Of a stretch of 64,000 nt of DNA, positions 41,435 to 49,956 are shown one piece after another. The notes below the pieces were generated by a model. It saw nothing but the letters and a program-made list of their open reading frames with translations, had not been told where the DNA came from and made no database searches. Origin of the DNA: an uncultured Chryseobacterium sp. (lineage in GTDB: Bacteria; Bacteroidota; Bacteroidia; Flavobacteriales; Weeksellaceae); assembly GCA_913778085.1 (NCBI GenBank), contig CAJYXJ010000040.1, positions 148,937 to 212,936 of the forward strand, in the 5' to 3' direction. The translations under genes and the position numbers were made by a program. Numbering within the stretch: position 1 is the first letter of the stretch; every line of letters begins with the position of its first letter.

Positions 41435-41555
41435 TGTTTAAATGTTTTAAAGTGATTGTAGGATAAATTTAAAAAAGATTTGGCGAAAAGTTTCACAATC
41501 GGAGGATTTTTTACAAAACAGCAACAAAAGACAAGCTTCTTTCTTCCGGACTTTA

Positions 41556-41563
41556 TACATTTG
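41556..41563 (+). promoter_or_regulatory. -7 box of the AraC-type gene
   Basis: TACATTTG matches TAnnTTTG, 18 bases before ATG 41582, which argues against starts further upstream. Confidence 0.5.
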
Positions 41564-41581
41564 CGCCAAATGCTTTGGAAA

Positions 41582-42483
41582 ATGGAAGAATACAAAAAGA
41601 GAATTGTAAAAGCCATCCGGTATATTGATGACCATCTGGATACCGATTTGTCTCTGCAGAAAATTGCTGAGGTGGGTGCTTATTCACCGTTTCATTTTCA
41701 TAGGATTTTCAGGCTGGTTACCGGCGAAAGCGTTCAGCAGTACATCAGCAGGAAAAGAATGGAGAGAGCGGCCTTTTATGTAGCTTTAAGAAAGAAATTA
41801 AGCCTGAAGGACATTTATCTTCAGTTCGGTTTTTCAAGCCACTCCGCTTTTACCAAAACGTTTAAAAATTATTACGGGCAGTCACCTTCCGCCTTTAGGA
41901 AATCTGTTCCGGAAAATGTTCACCAGATCCGCTTAGCAGAAAGCAAGAACGGACAAGTCGATACGGTTTTCAGCCCTTACCTTTGTAATATCGAAAACCT
42001 GTTTAACTGGACAAAAATGAATTTGAAAATTGATGTTATGCATCTTCCTGAGATGAACCTCGCAGCTGTTATGAGCTTAGGAATAGCGAATGTAGAGCCT
42101 TCTTATACCGTTCTGATCGACTGGGCTAAGGAAAGAAGTCTTTTTGCCCGTGAAAATGTAAAGATGATCTCGGTATATCATGATAGCTTCAAGGTGACGC
42201 CTCCGGACAAAGTGAGATCCATGCCTGCATGTTTTTAGATAAAAAATTGGAAAAGCAGGAGGGCGAAATATTTGGTGAAACTATAGAAGCCGGAAAATTT
42301 ATCGTAGGAAGCGGTGAAGTTACCCTGGATGATTTTGAAAAAAGCTGGGTGGCTCTTTTTCTTTGGATGAAAGAGAATGGCTATTCGGTACGTAAAGCAT
42401 TTCCGTTTGAAATCTACCATACCAATTTCAAGGAACATCCGGAAGGCAAAATGATCGTGGATTTCTGCATTCCGGTTAATTAA
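41582..42483 (+). pseudogene. AraC-family regulator with GyrI-like domain, frameshifted
   Basis: The first frame from ATG 41582 (MEEYKKRIVKAIRYIDDHLD) encodes the two AraC helix-turn-helix motifs (LQKIAEVGAYSPFHFHRIF and LKDIYLQFGFSSHSAFTKTF) and the first part of a GyrI-like ligand domain (MHLPEMNLAAVMSLG). It stops at 42236-42238 after DKVRSMPACF. The next frame continues at once with LDKKLEKQEGEIFGETIEAGK to 42483, the rest of the GyrI domain. The break lies in a run of five T at 42231-42235; six T would restore ACFLDKKL. Intact length would be about 300 residues. This may be a real mutation, phase variation or a sequencing error. The DNA-binding half could still be made. Confidence 0.8.
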
Positions 42484-42906
42484 CCTGCTCTAAAAGTGAA
42501 TGATAAATCCGCTTTGTTTGTCAATTCAATTTACTGAATATCAGGCTTGAAATATGCAGCAGTAAAGGCTTATCCCTAAATTATAAAATCACGGATAATA
42601 TCTTAATCTAAATTCCACTCCTTTGGAAGTGGTGGCGAAAATTCTATGAATTTTAGAGGGGTGTTTAAAACTATGGATGGTACTTAAAATAGAAAAATTT
42701 GATGATATTCAACGTATTTTCAATTTGTTATTGAGCATGGGCTTAATTAGGCGCTGATTGAGTATAAATGATTTAATGGATAATACATACTTTGGCCATA
42801 CTGTTGACAGAAGAAACTTCTTATTCCCTGATTTCTATACCAAGCTCACGTTAGATGCTTTTTTTGACCTTTATTTAATCCCCGAATTACATCAAAAAAT
42901 TAAATT
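42484..42906. other. gene-free region before the LytTR-controlled promoter
   Basis: No supported gene; a frame of 67 codons at 42758-42961 runs through the regulatory repeats and lacks any recognisable feature. Two adjacent hairpins occur: CCACTCC/GGAAGTGG at 42615-42632 and AAAATTC/GAATTTT at 42638-42654, followed by AGAGGGGTG. Confidence 0.4.
42615..42669. repeat. double-hairpin element, likely dispersed repeat remnant
   Basis: Two small stems in tandem followed by AGAGGGGTGTTTAAAA. From memory this resembles a dispersed intergenic element of Flavobacteriia in which CCACTCC...GGAGTGG precedes a second AATTC hairpin and GGGGTG. No second copy is in this window. Confidence 0.35.
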
Positions 42907-42979
42907 TTACAGCTCAGCTTCCAAAACCTACCGTTCGGTAACAAAAATTTATCTGCCCTGAAATTTCGTCTTACTTTTG
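42907..42979 (+). promoter_or_regulatory. LytTR-type direct-repeat operator and promoter A (receptor operon)
   Basis: TTACAGCTCAG (42907-42917) and CTACCGTTCGG (42928-42938) are direct repeats offset by 21 bp. A TAnnTTTG box (TACTTTTG, 42972-42979) begins 44 bp after the start of the second repeat. The same geometry occurs at two other promoters of the locus. Two half-sites with 12-bp gaps between 9-bp cores are what LytTR regulators such as AgrA bind. Confidence 0.78.
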
Positions 42980-42997
42980 AATCGAAATAAAACAGCT

Positions 42998-45214
42998 ATG
43001 AAAACAAAACTATTATTTCTTACTACCTTTTTATCTTTCACTTTTCATTTTGCACAGATCAGAATCTCCGGAAAAGTAACCTACAAAAATAAAGGGGTAG
43101 GAGAGGTAAGCGTGACTTTAAAAGATACCTATGACGGAACAACAACAGACGGCGGTGGAAATTTTTCTTTTGAAACCTCAGAAAAAGGCAATTTTGCCAT
43201 CGTTTTTACAAATCCGAAATATACAACCGTTGAAAAATCAGTTCTTATTGAAAACCAGGATCTGGTAATTAATGCAGACCTGAAAGAACAGATCAGCGAA
43301 ATCGATGCAGTGGTGATTTCCGCAGGTTCCATCGAAGCCAGCGACAAGAAGAGAGCAACAGCCGCATTGACGCCGATGGATATTTATACAACGGCGGGTT
43401 CCCAGGGGCAAACCACCACCGGTTACAAATTTTTACCGGGTGTACAGAACGCCGGAGACAGCGAAGGCCTTTTCGTAAGAGGCGGAACAGGCGCAGAAAC
43501 CAAGTTTTATATCGACGGTAATCTGGTCAACAACTACTTCAGCAGCTCGGTACCGGGATTGGCAGGAAGAGAACGTTTTAACACCTCTATTTTCAAAGGA
43601 AGCGTTTTTTCAAGTGGCGGATACTCTGCCCTGTATGGACAGGCCCTTTCATCGGTATTGCTGCTGGAAAGCGTAGATATGCCGGATCAGAGCTCTTATT
43701 CCTTCAATATTTTTCCTTTTTCCCTAGGGGGCGATTACCAGCAACTTAATGAAAAGAAAACCCTTAGTTACGGGATTGCAGCCAATATCTCAGATTTGGG
43801 ATTGGTTACCAAAGTACTGAATTTCGAGACGGATTTTATCAAAGCTCCTAGAAGCATCTCAGTTAACGGAAATTTCAGGATTAAAACTAAATCCGGCGGC
43901 TTCCTGAAATATTACGGGAGTTTTGATGCCAATTCTCTGAAGGTTTCGCAGCCAAGTCTGGAGCAGAATTACGATGAGCAGCAGCCTTCGGTTAACGGGA
44001 AAAATACTTTTCACAGCCTTACCTACAAAAAGAAAATGGGACGTTACCTGATGAACCTGGGTTCTTCCTTCAGCATCAATAAAAATGATCTGGAAATAGG
44101 GATTGTGAATGAAGGAAACAAAATAGGCAATGTCAATATGAATACAGAAGGCCAGTACTGGAACAGCCGGGCGGTCTTCGAAAGAAAAATCGCAGTGGTG
44201 AGCAATATCAAAGCCGGTTTTGAACTTCTTTCGGAAAACGATAAGTCATCCTCCTCGATCTTTGGTTCGCCACAGCAGAAGAACAACATCAGCAATTTTA
44301 CCACGGCTTTATTTGCTGAAAACAACCTGGCTTTCGGACGCAGCTTCTCTACCAGCTTAGGCATCAGAGCAGAAAATTCAAGCTTTCTGAACCAATGGAA
44401 TGTGGCGCCGCGTTTTTCAGCAGCATACCGGCTGTCAGACAAATGGGTAACTTCCTTTGCCTACGGTATTTTTTACCAGACTCCGGAATCCAAATATTTA
44501 ACGCAGAATTTTAAGCAGAATTTCCAGAAGGCGACCCACTATATTTTCCAGCTCCAGAGAAGCGAAGATAACAGGACTTTAAGGATGGAAGCATTTTATA
44601 AAGATTATAAAAATCTGGTGAAAACATCGGTGTCAGGCTTTCAGAATATCATTCTTCCAAATGAAGGAAACGGTTTTGCAAAAGGGGTGGAAGTGCTCTG
44701 GAGGGATAAGAAGAGTATTAAAAACGTAGATTACTGGATCTCCTATTCTTACCTTGACAGCAGAAGGGAATTCTTAAATTATCCTACCGAACTGTACCCG
44801 AGCTTCGCGGCAAAGCATAACATTTCCCTGGTGGCAAAGAAGTTTGTAACTTCATGGAAGACCGGATTTAATTTTTCCTATACCTATACCTCCGGAAGGC
44901 CTTTTTACAACATCGTGGCCCAAAGCGGAGAGAATATCCTGAAATCCGAAGGGAAAGTAAAAGATTTCAACTCATTGAATTTCAGTCTGAATTACCTTCC
45001 GAATCTCGGGAAAAAAGAGGCCAAAGCGTTTACCATACTGGTAGCGGGGGTCAACAACATTTTGGGAAATAAAAATATCTACGGCTACCGTTTTTCTTCC
45101 AACGGCGATAGGAGTGCCGCGGTTCTGCCTGCTGCCCAGACTTTTGTCTATATCGGTGCGCTGATCAGTTTCGGGATCGACAAGACCCAGGAGGCCATTG
45201 ACAACAATCTTTAA
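42998..45214 (+). CDS. TonB-dependent receptor
   Basis: 738 residues from ATG 42998 (MKTKLLFLTTFLSFTFHFAQ, signal peptide). The N-terminal carboxypeptidase-regulatory-like domain (IRISGKVTYKNKGVGEVSVT, about 20-105) is usual in Bacteroidota receptors. The plug domain shows SEGLFVRGGTGAETKFYIDGN, and the barrel continues to IGALISFGIDKTQEA. It imports an unknown substrate through the outer membrane using TonB energy. No SusD-like partner follows, so it is not a glycan system. It is controlled by operator A and followed by a secreted helical protein gene after 47 bases. Confidence 0.88.
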   Translation: MKTKLLFLTTFLSFTFHFAQIRISGKVTYKNKGVGEVSVTLKDTYDGTTTDGGGNFSFETSEKGNFAIVFTNPKYTTVEKSVLIENQDLVINADLKEQISEIDAVVISAGSIEASDKKRATAALTPMDIYTTAGSQGQTTTGYKFLPGVQNAGDSEGLFVRGGTGAETKFYIDGNLVNNYFSSSVPGLAGRERFNTSIFKGSVFSSGGYSALYGQALSSVLLLESVDMPDQSSYSFNIFPFSLGGDYQQLNEKKTLSYGIAANISDLGLVTKVLNFETDFIKAPRSISVNGNFRIKTKSGGFLKYYGSFDANSLKVSQPSLEQNYDEQQPSVNGKNTFHSLTYKKKMGRYLMNLGSSFSINKNDLEIGIVNEGNKIGNVNMNTEGQYWNSRAVFERKIAVVSNIKAGFELLSENDKSSSSIFGSPQQKNNISNFTTALFAENNLAFGRSFSTSLGIRAENSSFLNQWNVAPRFSAAYRLSDKWVTSFAYGIFYQTPESKYLTQNFKQNFQKATHYIFQLQRSEDNRTLRMEAFYKDYKNLVKTSVSGFQNIILPNEGNGFAKGVEVLWRDKKSIKNVDYWISYSYLDSRREFLNYPTELYPSFAAKHNISLVAKKFVTSWKTGFNFSYTYTSGRPFYNIVAQSGENILKSEGKVKDFNSLNFSLNYLPNLGKKEAKAFTILVAGVNNILGNKNIYGYRFSSNGDRSAAVLPAAQTFVYIGALISFGIDKTQEAIDNNL

Positions 45215-45261
45215 AAATTAATTAAAATCAATACAATAATCAACTTTAAAATTTAGAAATC

Positions 45262-45909
45262 ATGAGAAAATATGTTTTAAGTTTCGCTTTAGGCTTTATG
45301 AGTTTAGTATCTTACGCTCAGACTAATTATGAGAAGATAATGACCGAAAAAATAAGCAGGCTGGAATCCACCCGGTCTCCCGAAGAACTGCAGGCACTGG
45401 CCAATGATTTTCAGAGAATTGCCGAAAAGGAAAAAGACAAATGGCAGCCGAGTTATTACGCTGCACTGGCTTACATCCAGAAAGGAAGATCGCAGATGCA
45501 GGGTGGAAATAACCAGGCTTTGGAAGAAAACGCAGATCTGGCCCAGAAGTTTGTGGATGCCGCAGAAGCAATGGAAAAAAATAATTCCGAGATCCACCTT
45601 TTGCAGAAGATGATCTATTCATTGAAAATGATGGTCAATCCGATGGAAAGGTTCAGGACTTTCGGGGGCAAAGCCGAAGAGGAACTGAAAAAAGCAGAAC
45701 AGCTGGACCCGTCCAATCCAAGAGTAACCCTGATCAAAGCGGAAGATACCTATTACACACCGGAGCAGTTCGGGGGAAGCAAGGCAAAGGGAATGGAACT
45801 CTTTAAAGCATCTCTGGAAAAGTTCAATACCTTCAAACCAAAAACTGCCCTGGACCCAAATTGGGGAAAAACGGAAGCCCAGTATTTTTTAAGCGGCGCG
45901 GCGAAATAA
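45262..45909 (+). CDS. secreted TPR-like helical protein
   Basis: 215 residues. Signal peptide MRKYVLSFALGFMSLVSYAQ. The mature part is all helical, with TPR-like pairs (WQPSYYAALAYIQKGRSQM, LAQKFVDAAEAMEKNNSEI, AEEELKKAEQLDPSNPRV, then YYTPEQFGGSKAKGMELF). It lies 47 bases after the receptor gene and is followed by a terminator at 45926-45951, so the two form one operon under operator A. Probably periplasmic; it may accompany the receptor. Confidence 0.75.
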   Translation: MRKYVLSFALGFMSLVSYAQTNYEKIMTEKISRLESTRSPEELQALANDFQRIAEKEKDKWQPSYYAALAYIQKGRSQMQGGNNQALEENADLAQKFVDAAEAMEKNNSEIHLLQKMIYSLKMMVNPMERFRTFGGKAEEELKKAEQLDPSNPRVTLIKAEDTYYTPEQFGGSKAKGMELFKASLEKFNTFKPKTALDPNWGKTEAQYFLSGAAK

Positions 45910-45925
45910 TTCCGAAATATACTTT

Positions 45926-45951
45926 AAAACCTTCTTTCATAAGAAGGTTTT
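45926..45951 (+). terminator. terminator of the receptor operon
   Basis: AAAACCTTCTT (45926-45936) pairs with AAGAAGGTTTT (45941-45951), followed by more T. It touches the first LytTR half-site of operator B. Confidence 0.82.
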
Positions 45952-46023
45952 TTCCGTTCAGTCCCGAAAAACTACCGTTCGGAAAAAAATAATTTTTAGT
46001 ACTTAGAATATAGCCTATTTTTG
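45951..46023 (+). promoter_or_regulatory. LytTR-type direct-repeat operator and promoter B (kinase operon)
   Basis: TTTCCGTTCAG (45951-45961) and CTACCGTTCGG (45972-45982), offset 21 bp; TATTTTTG (46016-46023) begins 44 bp after the second repeat start. The second half-site is identical to that of operator A. The kinase ATG is 18 bases after the box. Confidence 0.8.
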
Positions 46024-46040
46024 AAATAAGAAAATTGTAA

Positions 46041-47357
46041 ATGAAACGGAAGAACCTTATTACTTTATGCTGGATCTCGGTGGCCACATCGATGATCTTT
46101 TTCTTTGGGTTTACCAGCGAGAAAACGGTGGAAAATTTCATGCTTACCGTGGTGGTATGTTTCATGTATTCATTTATCCTGGGTGCGGGAAACGGAGTGA
46201 TCAACGATTATCTCAATAAAAAGTTCCCGTGGTCCGAAGCGACGACGAAAAGGGCGGTTATCAGCATTATTTCCATTTTGGTGGCCAATACGGTAATGGT
46301 GTATTTTTGCAACTACATGAATTTTGTCGTATTCCAGAAAGCAGCAACTACTGAAGAATATTTTTCAGGAAAGTATGGTTTTGTGAATTGGTTTACGATC
46401 AATATCGCTCTGTTGATTTCCGCTTTCCTTCACGCAAAAGGGTTTATGGAAGAGCTGAAAAAGACTTCCAAAAAGGAAGTGGTGGAGCAGAAGCTGATCG
46501 CCAAATCGGCCAATGCCCAGTTTGAGAGCCTTAAAAACCAGCTGGACCCGCATTTTCTATTTAATTCGTTAAACGTTTTAAGTTCGCTGATCGATGAGAA
46601 TCCAAAGCAGGCGCAGAAGTTTACCGCCTCGATGTCAAAGATCTACCGCTATGTTTTGGAACAGAAAGATAAAGAACTCGTAACCGTAGAAGACGAGCTG
46701 GAATTTGCGAAAACCTACTGCGATTTATTGAAAACAAGATTTGAAGACAGCGTAGACTTTGTTTTTGACGTGAAAAAAGATGATTACCGGAGATTTGTCG
46801 TGCCGTTGTCGCTGCAGCTGCTGCTGGAGAACTGCATCAAGCATAATTTCGCCACTTCATCCAAACCTTTGGTCATTAAAATTTTCTCCGAAAACGATAC
46901 GCTCTGTATTGAAAACAACCTACAGGTAAGGGAACAGATCAAGGAAAGTTCAGGAATCGGTTTAGCCAACATTGTACAGCGATATGCGCTGCTGACAAAG
47001 AAAAATGTATTCATTGAAAAATCCGAAGATTATTTTAAAGTAAAGCTTCCGGTGCTTTCTTCCAAATCCAATACATTCAGTGTTATACCGGAAAATAAAA
47101 ACGAATCCTATGAAAGGGCGCAGAAACGCGTCAAAGAAATAAAAAGCTTCTACAGTAACCTGATCTCATACTGTATCATCATTCCATTTTTAGTTATTAT
47201 CAATCTCCTGACAACTCCTGAAAATATCTGGTTCTTTTTCCCGATGCTGGGCTGGGGAATCGGAGTGGTAGCACATGGAATGAGCGTTTTTGCCATCGGT
47301 AAAAAGTGGGAAGACAAAAAGATCAGGCAGATTCTTGAAAAACAAAACAAACAATAA
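46041..47357 (+). CDS. LytS-type sensor histidine kinase fused to a 2TM domain
   Basis: 438 residues. Four N-terminal membrane segments (about 8-24, 33-50, 71-90, 116-132) without a large outer loop; a His_kinase domain with QLDPHFLFNSLN (H171 phosphorylated), LLENCIKHN (N264) and SSGIGLANI; then a C-terminal 2TM domain (about 355-430; ERAQKRVKEIKSFYSNLISY, then FPMLGWGIGVVAHGMSVF). The 2TM domain is related to the separate proteins at 47369, 48556 and 48880. The partner regulator is the LytTR protein at 49213. The first gene after operator B, so probably self-activating. Confidence 0.9.
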   Translation: MKRKNLITLCWISVATSMIFFFGFTSEKTVENFMLTVVVCFMYSFILGAGNGVINDYLNKKFPWSEATTKRAVISIISILVANTVMVYFCNYMNFVVFQKAATTEEYFSGKYGFVNWFTINIALLISAFLHAKGFMEELKKTSKKEVVEQKLIAKSANAQFESLKNQLDPHFLFNSLNVLSSLIDENPKQAQKFTASMSKIYRYVLEQKDKELVTVEDELEFAKTYCDLLKTRFEDSVDFVFDVKKDDYRRFVVPLSLQLLLENCIKHNFATSSKPLVIKIFSENDTLCIENNLQVREQIKESSGIGLANIVQRYALLTKKNVFIEKSEDYFKVKLPVLSSKSNTFSVIPENKNESYERAQKRVKEIKSFYSNLISYCIIIPFLVIINLLTTPENIWFFFPMLGWGIGVVAHGMSVFAIGKKWEDKKIRQILEKQNKQ

Positions 47358-47368
47358 ATTTTAAAATC

Positions 47369-47674
47369 ATGGAACCGATCAGCAAAGACGATATCCGTTA
47401 TAAAGAAGCCGAAAAGCAGGTGAAAAGGATCAAACAATTCTATGTTTTCCTGTTCATCTATCTGGCAGTCAATATTTTTATTCTAATCCTGAATTACCGG
47501 GAACTGAAACCGGGAGAAACGATATGGCACCTGAAATACTTCTCCCTTCCGCTGTTCTGGGGGATAGCCGTGGTCATCCAGGCGATGAGGGCCTTTATTC
47601 CCGGGTTTATGCTGGGAAGCAAATGGGAAGACCGCAAGATCAGGGAACTGATGGAAAAAGAAAAACAGCCGTAA
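47369..47674 (+). CDS. 2TM domain protein
   Basis: 101 residues. An N-terminal amphipathic stretch (RYKEAEKQVKRIKQFYVFL) leads into two membrane segments (VFLFIYLAVNIFILILNY and LPLFWGIAVVIQAMRAF), with a closing SKWEDRKIRELMEKEK that matches the end of the kinase's 2TM domain. It starts 11 bases after the kinase gene. The function of 2TM proteins is unknown; shared sequence with the kinase suggests that they associate in the membrane. Confidence 0.85.
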   Translation: MEPISKDDIRYKEAEKQVKRIKQFYVFLFIYLAVNIFILILNYRELKPGETIWHLKYFSLPLFWGIAVVIQAMRAFIPGFMLGSKWEDRKIRELMEKEKQP

Positions 47675-47715
47675 TTTATTTATTCTTTAATTAAAAATTT
47701 AAAAAACCTGATGCT

Positions 47716-48285
47716 ATGAAAACTTTGCAAATCCTGTTTACCGTGTCCATGGTTGCGTGGTTCATCACAGAAATCCTGTACAAAAACATCCTGAAGTCCG
47801 GTGAGAAAGATCAAAAAGACAAAGACCGGTCTACCCTGAATATTCTCTGGATGGCTATACCCGGTTCCATAATCAGTGCTGTGGCAGCTTCTTATCTTAC
47901 GAGAATTCCGATTTCCGATGAGGTGGGAATTTATTACATAGGCGTAGCCTGTATATGGATCGGAATTATTTTAAGATTCATCATTATCCGCTCTTTGGGT
48001 AAATATTTCACCGTGGATGTCACGATCCGCGAAGACCACAAGATCAAAAGAGAAGGGTTTTACAGGTACATCAGGCATCCGTCGTATGCTTTTTCCCTGC
48101 TTACTTCGTTAGGGCTGGGTTTATACCTAAATAACTGGATTTCTCTATGTTTAGCTTTTACTGTTCCTTTTATGGCGTTCCTTTACAGGATCAAAGTGGA
48201 AGAAAAAGCATTGATCGAGCAATTCGGTGAAGAATACCTGGAATACCGAAGGAAAACAAAGAAACTGATTCCGTTTGTTTATTAG
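47716..48285 (+). CDS. isoprenylcysteine carboxyl methyltransferase-family membrane protein
   Basis: 189 residues, about five membrane segments. The ICMT/phospholipid methyltransferase block RSLGKYFTVDVTIREDHKI, then GFYRYIRHPSYAFSLL, then FGEEYLEYRRKTKKLIPF binds SAM and donates the methyl group. Bacterial members act on unknown lipids or small molecules. It is in the kinase operon, 41 bases after the 2TM gene, and followed by a terminator at 48412-48441. Confidence 0.85.
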   Translation: MKTLQILFTVSMVAWFITEILYKNILKSGEKDQKDKDRSTLNILWMAIPGSIISAVAASYLTRIPISDEVGIYYIGVACIWIGIILRFIIIRSLGKYFTVDVTIREDHKIKREGFYRYIRHPSYAFSLLTSLGLGLYLNNWISLCLAFTVPFMAFLYRIKVEEKALIEQFGEEYLEYRRKTKKLIPFVY

Positions 48286-48411
48286 GTGATGATCTGAAGT
48301 TTAATAAAGTTCTATAAAATACAGGTCAATAAAGGTTCGGCCATAAATTCATTCACTTAGGCTTAAAGTGCCACTGAACTTCTTAAAAAAATCTTTCATA
48401 ATTACCTATCA

Positions 48412-48441
48412 AAATCCCGATTCTCCGCTGAGTCGGGATTT
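48412..48441 (+). terminator. terminator of the kinase operon
   Basis: AAATCCCGA (48412-48420) pairs with TCGGGATTT (48433-48441). As with the receptor operon, the next LytTR half-site begins directly after the hairpin. Confidence 0.8.
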
Positions 48442-48514
48442 TTACAGTTCAGTGTTCATATTCTACGGTTCGGTTATATAAAATTGATTTGGGGCGGTTC
48501 CTATGCTACCTTTG
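48442..48514 (+). promoter_or_regulatory. LytTR-type direct-repeat operator and promoter C (2TM/regulator operon)
   Basis: TTACAGTTCAG (48442-48452) and CTACGGTTCGG (48463-48473), offset 21 bp; TACCTTTG (48507-48514) begins 44 bp after the second repeat start. The first half-site is one base from the AgrA core ACAGTTAAG. Confidence 0.8.
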
Positions 48515-48555: not shown

Positions 48556-48849
48556 ATGGAAACATTCATCAACAAAGAAACACAGGCTTACGAAAAAGCA
48601 GCAAGAAGAGTAAAAGAACTGAAAGGGTTTTACGGAAATCTTACTTCCTATGTTTTGGTTATCTCCTTTCTGGTGATTCTGAACCTGATAACTTCACCGG
48701 AATACCTTTGGTTCGTATGGCCGATGATGGGTTGGGGAATCGGTGTCGCCGCACACGCCGCGGGAACTTTCGGAATCGGAAAAGACTGGGAAGAGCGTAA
48801 GATCAAAGAACTGATGGACGAAGAAAGAAAAAGCACAAAAACTTTATAA
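48556..48849 (+). CDS. 2TM domain protein
   Basis: 97 residues from ATG 48556 (METFINKETQAYEKAARRVK). The 2TM core closely repeats the kinase C-terminus: ELKGFYGNLTSYVLVISFLV, SPEYLWFVWPMMGWGIGVA, then GIGKDWEERKIKELMDEE. First gene after operator C; a longer frame starting at 48484 would include the promoter and is rejected. Confidence 0.85.
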   Translation: METFINKETQAYEKAARRVKELKGFYGNLTSYVLVISFLVILNLITSPEYLWFVWPMMGWGIGVAAHAAGTFGIGKDWEERKIKELMDEERKSTKTL

Positions 48850-48879: not shown

Positions 48880-49155
48880 ATGGACTACAATCAGGCACAG
48901 CAAAGAGTAAGAGACCTTAAAAAATTCTACAAAGGCGTTTTATGGTTTTTCATCGTGGCTTTCATTATATTTTTTGATGATATTTTTGAAAAAGGGATCT
49001 TTAACATTTCATTGTGGGACGGTTCGGTATTGCTGGCAATCTGGGGCATTATTCTCACCGTTAAAGCCGTCAGACTATTCCTGCTGGACAATGAATGGGA
49101 GAGAAGCGTGATCGAAAAAGAGATGGGAAAATCAAAACATCCACTTAAATTTTAA
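48880..49155 (+). CDS. 2TM domain protein, divergent
   Basis: 91 residues. QAQQRVRDLKKFYKGVLWFF leads into two membrane segments and closes with DNEWERSVIEKEMGKSK, the same closing pattern as the other 2TM proteins. The loop sequence differs (FDDIFEKGIFNISLWDGS). It starts 30 bases after the previous 2TM gene, and the LytTR regulator gene follows 57 bases on. Confidence 0.8.
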   Translation: MDYNQAQQRVRDLKKFYKGVLWFFIVAFIIFFDDIFEKGIFNISLWDGSVLLAIWGIILTVKAVRLFLLDNEWERSVIEKEMGKSKHPLKF

Positions 49156-49212
49156 AACCGGTAATTTTTGCTTACTTTTATTCGGAATTTTAAAAACTAA
49201 ATCGGGAACTCA

Positions 49213-49956
49213 ATGATTAAGACTGTCATTATCGAAGACGAAAAACCGGCTTCAAGGAAATTGGAAAGAATGCTTAGTGAATTTGCTGATATTGAACTGG
49301 TTGCCAAGATAGAATCGGTAGAAGAAGGCCTGGAGTGGTTTTCGGCAAACGAGCATCCGCAGTTGATATTTTCAGATATCGTCCTTGGGGACGGATTGTC
49401 ATTCGATATTTTTGAGAAAGTCCGTACCAAAGCTTTCATCATCTACACCACGGCTTTTGACCAGTATACCCTGAAAGCTTTTAAACTAAACAGCATCGAT
49501 TATCTATTAAAGCCGATCCTGGATGAAGACCTTGCCGCAGCAGTGGAGAAATTCAAATCTTTTATTCCTTCCGATAATTCGGTCAATTCGCAGGAAATTA
49601 AGCAGTTAATTAAAAAAGAAAAATCTACCCTGTCCAGAATCCTGGTTAAAATCGGGTACAACCTGAAAATCGTGCAGACGCCTGAAGTAAGCTGCTTTTT
49701 CAGCGAAAATAAGATCGTTTACCTGCAGACTCAGGAACGGACGTATCCTTCAGATTTTACACTGGACGAACTGGAAGAGGTGCTGGATGAGAAAAAGTTT
49801 TTCCGGGTAAACCGCCAGTTTATCATTAATTCCGATTACATCAAAAATATTCACACATCGCCTACTTATAAAGTGGAACTGGAGTTTCAGCCGCAGGAAG
49901 AAATTACTGTCAGCCGCGAGCGTGTCAAGGATTTCAAAGACTGGCTCGTCAGCTAA
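49213..49956 (+). CDS. LytTR-family response regulator
   Basis: 247 residues. The receiver domain (1-120) has the acidic pair in VIIEDEKPASR, the phospho-acceptor D55 in LIFSDIVLGDG, the T/Y switch in IIYTTAFDQY and Lys in IDYLLKPI. The LytTR DNA-binding domain is at about 140-245 (ILVKIGYNLKIVQTPEVSCF, then FFRVNRQFIINSDYIKNIH). It is the expected partner of the LytS-type kinase. It probably binds the three direct-repeat operators of the locus, including the one that drives its own operon. Confidence 0.94.
   Translation: MIKTVIIEDEKPASRKLERMLSEFADIELVAKIESVEEGLEWFSANEHPQLIFSDIVLGDGLSFDIFEKVRTKAFIIYTTAFDQYTLKAFKLNSIDYLLKPILDEDLAAAVEKFKSFIPSDNSVNSQEIKQLIKKEKSTLSRILVKIGYNLKIVQTPEVSCFFSENKIVYLQTQERTYPSDFTLDELEEVLDEKKFFRVNRQFIINSDYIKNIHTSPTYKVELEFQPQEEITVSRERVKDFKDWLVS

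Follow-up and report, generated by a model that had tools for sequence, protein, structure and literature searches.

LytTR regulators that act at direct-repeat promoters, LytS/LytTR two-component systems and HusAB-mediated uptake are all known. In the excerpts available of the relevant reports, the repeats of HdrR are 9 bp long and most such repeats lie 12 bp apart (PMC6193735), the promoter-proximal repeat of AgrA is near -60 (PMC4227749), and the Bacteroides operons that resemble LytTR Regulatory Systems (LRS) have 11-bp repeats, 11 bp apart (PMC6193735). The Hus system of Porphyromonas gingivalis consists of the haemophore HusA, the TonB receptor HusB, HusC and HusD. HusA binds porphyrin or haem and has a TPR-like fold, and the excerpt on it notes homologues only in Bacteroidetes (PMC6173696). 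Here, we analysed a stretch of 64,000 nucleotides (hereafter the window) from an uncultured Chryseobacterium sp., in which three promoters carry a composite element made of two direct half-sites and a -7 box. They precede the genes of a TonB-dependent receptor, of a sensor kinase, and of two 2TM proteins followed by a LytTR response regulator (Table 1). We consider it likely, from sequence comparisons, that the elements are the sites of this regulator (at 49213), which, working as a pair with the kinase of LytS type (at 46041), would activate a HusAB-type uptake system, an unlinked alpha/beta hydrolase (ABH) and its own circuit.

Like this locus, promoters of the AgrA/HdrR type have a pair of direct repeats immediately before the promoter, repeating every 21 bp or so. 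They differ from it in that the promoters studied here have the -7 box of Bacteroidota instead of -10 and -35 boxes, and in the targets, which are here a TonB receptor and a haemophore system. The regulator combines a PF04397 domain with a receiver, and the period of 21 bp recurs at each of the three sites as well as in relatives. All 11 regulator sequences compared have the motif variant FFRVNRQ, where AgrA has FFRCHNS in the excerpt available. The cluster also resembles LRS, in which a LytTR regulator is encoded with membrane proteins and apparently regulates itself positively through direct repeats. However, LRS are minimal pairs of a regulator and a membrane inhibitor, outside the known two-component paradigm, and we rejected membership in this class because a receiver domain and a LytS kinase are present here. 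The small membrane proteins of LRS are of the DUF2154 or NfeD type in the excerpt of PMC6193735, whereas those encoded here have the 2TM domain (PF13239) and there is no evidence that they are inhibitors.

The cluster looks like a porphyrin or haem uptake system of the HusAB type controlled by a LytS/LytTR two-component pair that is accompanied by 2TM proteins. We read it as HusAB-type because the protein encoded behind the receptor (45262) is a relative (homologue) of the haemophore HusA. As in P. gingivalis, the HusA relative is directly beside a TonB receptor. The two-component part comprises a membrane kinase with the PF06580 domain, encoded together with the regulator. In P. gingivalis, husC is annotated as a member of the MarR family and proposed to be a regulator, as yet uncharacterised according to the excerpt (PMC4222909), whereas the presumed regulator here is a LytTR protein. 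Unlike the cluster in the window, the Hus system is described in the excerpts of PMC4222909 and PMC6173696 with no mention of LytTR or 2TM parts. HaeSR of the same species is alike in being a two-component system tied to hemin acquisition, according to the excerpt of PMC10100897. The original prediction from the window knew of no description of the regulon. Searches of open-licence full texts gave none either, nor any account joining LytTR promoters, LytS/LytTR and HusAB. A PSP paper retrieved in these searches has, in its excerpt, no connection to the cluster.

Three copies of a composite promoter element

The geometry first proposed for the three promoters was recovered exactly. All nine coordinates are correct. 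In each element the half-sites lie at an offset of 21 bp, with the start of a TAnnTTTG box 44 bp after that of the second half-site. TAnnTTTG is the -7 box consensus of Bacteroidota. The 31-bp pattern of the two half-sites (up to two mismatches) matched the 64-kb window three times, at elements 1-3, with 0.01 matches expected from shuffled sequences. With at most one mismatch in 18 informative positions, the full composite matched the 4.63-Mb genome three times at box distance 44. At this threshold neither the composite at box distance 45 nor its backwards control matched anywhere in the genome. A slightly different composite pattern, allowing up to three mismatches, gave seven matches in the genome and none for the control: elements 1-3, one site upstream of ABH and three sites with three mismatches (L032-L034). 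The half-site pair without the box was discarded as a finder for being too loose (19 matches at up to three mismatches versus four for the backwards control). The next best match of this pair-only search, after elements 1-3, is inside a metalloprotease-like gene.

Two of the elements had been described as starting right at the terminator of the preceding operon. Folding detected terminator-like hairpins abutting elements 2 and 3, and none at element 1 (z -1.3). A scan for sigma-70 promoters and terminators, which addresses another promoter type, missed both hairpins.

Table 1. Promoter elements, hairpins and genes of the cluster, with positions in the window.
Feature	Position	Strand	Remarks
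Element 1, direct-repeat pair: TTACAGCTCAG at 42907 and CTACCGTTCGG at 42928	42907..42938	+	upstream of receptor
-7 box of receptor promoter, TACTTTTG	42972..42979	+	starts 44 bp past start of half-site 2
TonB-dependent receptor (HusB-like by position); N-terminal domain CarboxypepD_reg-like	42998..45214	+	Pfam PF00593, PF13715
HusA-type TPR-like haemophore relative, signal-like N-terminus	45262..45909	+	215 residues
Terminator-like hairpin 3' of receptor operon, abuts element 2	45926..45951	+	folding: -11.9 kcal/mol, z -4.1
Element 2, direct-repeat pair: TTTCCGTTCAG at 45951 and CTACCGTTCGG at 45972	45951..45982	+	upstream of kinase
-7 box of kinase promoter, TATTTTTG	46016..46023	+	
LytS-type sensor kinase; membrane segments at N-terminus, 2TM domain at C-terminus	46041..47357	+	Pfam His_kinase PF06580, 2TM PF13239; hydropathy
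Stand-alone 2TM protein (behind kinase)	47369..47674	+	Pfam PF13239
ICMT/PEMT-type membrane methyltransferase	47716..48285	+	Pfam PF04140, PF04191
Terminator-like hairpin 3' of kinase operon, abuts element 3	48411..48442	+	folding: -18.8 kcal/mol, z -6.2
Element 3, direct-repeat pair: TTACAGTTCAG at 48442 and CTACGGTTCGG at 48463	48442..48473	+	upstream of first 2TM gene of regulator operon
-7 box of 2TM promoter, TACCTTTG	48507..48514	+	
Stand-alone 2TM protein (first in regulator operon)	48556..48849	+	Pfam PF13239
Stand-alone 2TM protein (second in regulator operon)	48880..49155	+	Pfam PF13239
LytTR response regulator, presumed binder of elements 1-3	49213..49956	+	Pfam Response_reg PF00072, LytTR PF04397 (E 7.1e-22)

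Conservation in relatives

We scored the 250 bp upstream of each gene in 80 loci with an orthologue of the LytTR regulator, taken from other assemblies nearly all named Chryseobacterium, using a threshold of three mismatches in 18 positions. The element was upstream of the receptor in 72 of 72 rows, of the kinase in 67 of 74, and of the first 2TM gene of the regulator operon in 79 of 80. It was upstream of none of the others: haemophore (0/72), 2TM gene behind the kinase (0/73), methyltransferase (0/67), second 2TM gene of the regulator operon (0/77) and lytTR (0/80). Among 1303 background windows from the same loci, two had the element at this threshold. The receptor rows leave out matches below 35% identity and one gene too near the locus end (L038), and count L093 twice (two overlapping open reading frames with one promoter). 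The 2TM rows drop L057 and count L091 twice, the second, internal paralogue of which is the sole miss. Hence, the repeats, whose loss from relatives would have spoken against the original prediction, are kept throughout the genus at these three promoters, and related forms occur outside it.

A 7x7 grid of half-site offsets and box distances over the plus strand of the 80 loci (up to one mismatch) gave 96 matches at 21/44, 116 at 21/45, and two in the remaining 47 cells together. An exact-match scan of the minus strand gave zero in every cell. The distance of 44 holds for all three elements of the window; we rejected it as a fixed rule, since 45 is equally common in relatives. The half-sites were first described as 11-mers, and these are present, but the conserved core is CNN(T/C)TCRG and not the full 11-mer. 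Core positions hold 1.0-2.0 bits, and the 10 bp between half-sites hold little information except for an A/T tract.

Chance repeats are ruled out by the rarity in window and genome, the geometry grid and the gene specificity in relatives. The fixed distance from the TAnnTTTG box would also be expected of a conserved core-promoter or sigma-factor feature of Bacteroidota, with no protein bound to the repeats. Yet such a feature would not be limited to three copies (up to one mismatch) in 4.63 Mb, nor would it be restricted, within the 80 loci, to a single set of genes and absent from 1301 of the 1303 background windows (up to three mismatches). The last two results refute a general promoter feature, and we give this explanation almost no credence.

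The element tracks operon structure, not gene identity. Of the kinase genes preceded by a gap of 110 bp or more, a cut-off of our own choice, 65 of 67 have the element, plus two without a listed upstream gene. Those with less than 110 bp upstream have it in none of five cases. In other genera, HusA-like genes that are not directly behind the receptor operon can carry their own element (L158, L160, L162-L164, L181), and in L181 the receptor and the HusA-like gene are around 45 kb away from lytTR. This natural rearrangement is the strongest argument for the element as a shared regulatory input.

Orthologues of the regulator (E ≤ 1e-60) were found once in each of 60 genomes of the genus. We scanned a family sample of 148 genomes from 33 genera for the composite at distance 44 only. 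It was present in 93 of the 94 genomes with an orthologue of at least 57% identity, in 3 of 30 with an orthologue of 41-55%, and in 1 of 24 without orthologue (E > 1e-45); these classes were sorted by hand, G142, G146, G153 and G162 being assigned to the last one. The first and last classes differ with a Fisher value of 3e-22 (on non-independent genomes). The backwards control matched 3 of the 148 genomes, once each.

These data bear on which protein uses the elements. Another regulator might bind them, e.g., a paralogous LytTR, while the neighbouring lytTR controls something else. The genome holds 11 further LytTR-like or receiver matches, and two paralogues, L002 and L003, also have FFRVNRQ or FFRANRQ in their LytTR domain. 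However, each of the two has its own adjacent His_kinase gene, without 2TM domain, the genome has no further composite at up to one mismatch, and the elements accompany close orthologues of the regulator at 49213 in nearly all genomes that have one. We regard the involvement of another regulator as improbable. The predicted link between the elements and the regulator at 49213 is supported by adjacency, by the LytTR-type direct repeat of 21 bp and by the co-occurrence with its orthologues.

The group with 41-55% identity still has sites, in which half-site 1 is mostly CNNYTCATC in the loci read. We applied a widened half-site (CNNYTCRK) to 22 upstream regions from diverged genera and two further families. 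Offset 21 scored at least 11 of 12 in 18 of the 22 regions, offset 20 in four, and no other offset between 12 and 35 in more than three. The regions belong to receptor or HusA-like genes chosen from 18 loci (L167-L171, L214-L225, L227), a choice in which most HusA-like genes a short way after a receptor were omitted. The result is partly circular, because the widened pattern was set after viewing the diverged sequences; the comparison of offsets is unaffected. Related repeats are present in two more families, with the 21-bp period kept and the half-sites altered. In the diverged loci the HusA-like gene, the kinase and the LytTR gene stay together, and 9 of 13 have a receptor in reach; a 14th locus (L226) has a paralogue without cluster genes. 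By eye, the receptor promoters of L216 and L225 (family f7), and perhaps of L223, appear to have three repeats spaced by 20-21 bp.

Proposed mechanism and its alternatives

By convention the -7 box is placed at -11 to -4. The repeats would then be at about -76 to -45, as in LytTR activators. Of 65 kinase promoters, 37 have a TTG at 17 nt from the box, and of 79 promoters of 2TM genes, 75 have one at 21 nt. In the 72 rows of receptor promoters TTG occurs 8 times at the spacings tested, and the receptor promoter of the window has no TTG in the -33 zone. Since receptor promoters mostly lack TTG, this suggests that they depend on an activator, which is less clear for the kinase and 2TM promoters.

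In the proposed mechanism, two LytTR monomers would bind the 21-bp direct repeat just upstream of the RNA polymerase, and would thereby activate promoters with a good TAnnTTTG box. The output would comprise the TonB receptor and the TPR haemophore related to HusA, with porphyrin or haem as the probable cargo or signal, together with the unlinked secreted ABH. The lytTR gene is 57 bp behind the 2TM pair (49155 to 49213), a gap that is shorter than 70 bp in 76 of 80 rows. Given this short gap, and the lack of an own element in 80 of 80 rows, it is probably read from element 3 by co-transcription with the 2TM pair. The kinase, the 2TM proteins and (by co-transcription) lytTR would then all be encoded behind elements, which makes positive feedback on the three likely. 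A kinase orthologue is in the same locus as lytTR in 74 of the 80 loci. No kinase was found within the stretch examined in L053, L057, L058, L075, L081 and L104, of which L057 and L104 end before lytTR. The stand-alone 2TM proteins may pair with the 2TM domain of the kinase, as a guess from the shared domain. The prediction that the regulator at 49213 acts on the receptor, kinase and 2TM operons is supported by conservation, adjacency and co-occurrence; its binding and the sign of the regulation are inferred.

The same regulator might instead act on the same elements as a repressor or dual regulator, keeping the uptake genes off unless the kinase signals. Sequence alone does not fix the sign, and the 43 of 72 receptor rows with box distance 45, most of which have an extra inverted repeat, could host a second control. 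Yet there is a constant, wide gap between the end of the repeats and the -7 box, as for those of activators such as AgrA in the excerpt of PMC4227749, and the scarcity of TTG in receptor promoters (8 occurrences in 72 rows) also speaks for an activator. Repression or dual control is therefore unlikely in our view, with activation by the regulator at 49213 preferred.

The inverted repeat itself is found in most receptor promoters with distance 45 (43 of 72 rows, L035-L114), e.g., at L090:2785-2849. It overlaps half-site 2, fills the spacer to the -7 box and is upstream of the presumed start site. In 39 aligned promoters (of 42 distinct ones, three being left out), 90.8% of the cells pair over 14 pairs, five pairs are changed on both sides, and G-U is tolerated. 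The receptor promoter of the window belongs to the distance-44 class, where the inverted repeat is rare. A terminator, a hairpin or a second operator are possible; as to a third LytTR half-site, the compensatory and G-U pairs look more like a hairpin.

Several observations weigh against activation of a HusAB-type system by this regulator. The receptor adjoins the HusA-like gene and is assigned to HusB by position only, and its comparison with solved structures gave no match at E ≤ 0.01. The structure model of the regulator is too poor to use (mean pLDDT, the predicted local distance difference test, of 42.9). Element 1 has one mismatch and the ABH copy of the same genome two; some sites may be weak. 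The ABH copy of another genome (G033) is degraded, with four mismatches. The kinase genes of L045 and L051 have a long upstream gap and no matching element (L051 has a pair with altered spacing), L048, one of the five short-gap kinase genes without element, is just below the cut-off (109 bp), and six HusA-like and two lytTR genes with a gap of at least 110 bp also lack the element. Finally, the genomes are related and not independent, and the counts and the Fisher value overstate certainty.

A broader scenario, which we put forward tentatively and with more doubt than the regulon itself, is a circuit for sensing porphyrin or haem throughout Flavobacteriales. LytS would sense the ligand or the activity of the receptor via its fused 2TM domain and the free 2TM proteins, and LytTR would drive HusAB uptake, in some genera a secreted hydrolase, and positive feedback, with one promoter grammar over at least three families. 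If true, this circuit would assign a role to the 2TM domain. The regulon would be a defined one, with a searchable promoter signature, in bacteria for which we found no LytTR regulon in the open-licence literature. It would be tied to haemophore-type acquisition of porphyrin or haem, making HusA-type regulation and the role of 2TM proteins testable.

Sites outside the cluster and neighbouring genes

In the 60 genomes of the genus, the composite (up to one mismatch) was found at distance 44 in 59 genomes, at distance 45 in 59, and in all 60 when both were combined. The backwards control had no match at either spacing. With 18 informative positions and no control match in these genomes, the element is usable as a regulon finder. 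We read 15 off-cluster sites, of which 13 are upstream of one gene, encoding the secreted ABH, and two upstream of a ChaN-like protein. ABH orthologues (E ≤ 1e-60) are present in 20 of the 60 genomes and 19 of them have the element at up to two mismatches. The genome of the window is among the carriers, with the ABH site on another contig. In the order sample, ABH orthologues (E ≤ 1e-40) were found in 8 of 246 genomes (2 of 81 genera), all eight with the element; ABH as a target in all families is unsupported. We analysed 13 further sites in 12 regions of other genera and of genus members. Among the matches listed, eight are upstream of ABH, two of a receptor, one of the 215-residue protein and two of an RND efflux operon. 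The original prediction had included neither ABH as an unlinked fourth target, nor the HusA-type gene (45262-45909), nor the absence of an own element at lytTR.

The two sites at the RND efflux operon (adaptor and AcrB-like), in L179 (G101) and L180 (G049), match the composite with one mismatch, and similar sites recur at G154:C1:2033696 and G167:C23:92438. This operon is a possible further member of the regulon. The sites in L123 (G038) and L124 (G007) have good half-site pairs and a poor -7 box, and are upstream of the ChaN-like (haem-binding uptake/Tiki) membrane protein, which matched Pfam Cofac_haem_bdg only at E 0.0059, below the cut-off. In L118 (G057), the ABH gene that follows the element is split over two frames. 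Further off-cluster matches are in G017:C8, G009:C1, G056:C289 and G006:C18 (distance-44 scan), in G005:C17, G011:C33 and G016:C3 (distance-45 scan), and in G026:C3.

The 215-residue protein at 45262 has no Pfam or NCBIfam match above the curated cut-off. A second, distant paralogue of it (26%) is encoded at G000:C64:106316-106885 (L226), with no other cluster gene among the matches in the 8.6 kb examined. A near-DNA search for the kinase gene among plasmids found nothing. Upstream of the receptor operon, a gene for an AraC-type regulator (41480-42484) is apparently split, by eye, across two reading frames. Its open reading frame ends at 42238 and a similar reading continues in another frame to around 42484, from a sequencing error or in a pseudogene.

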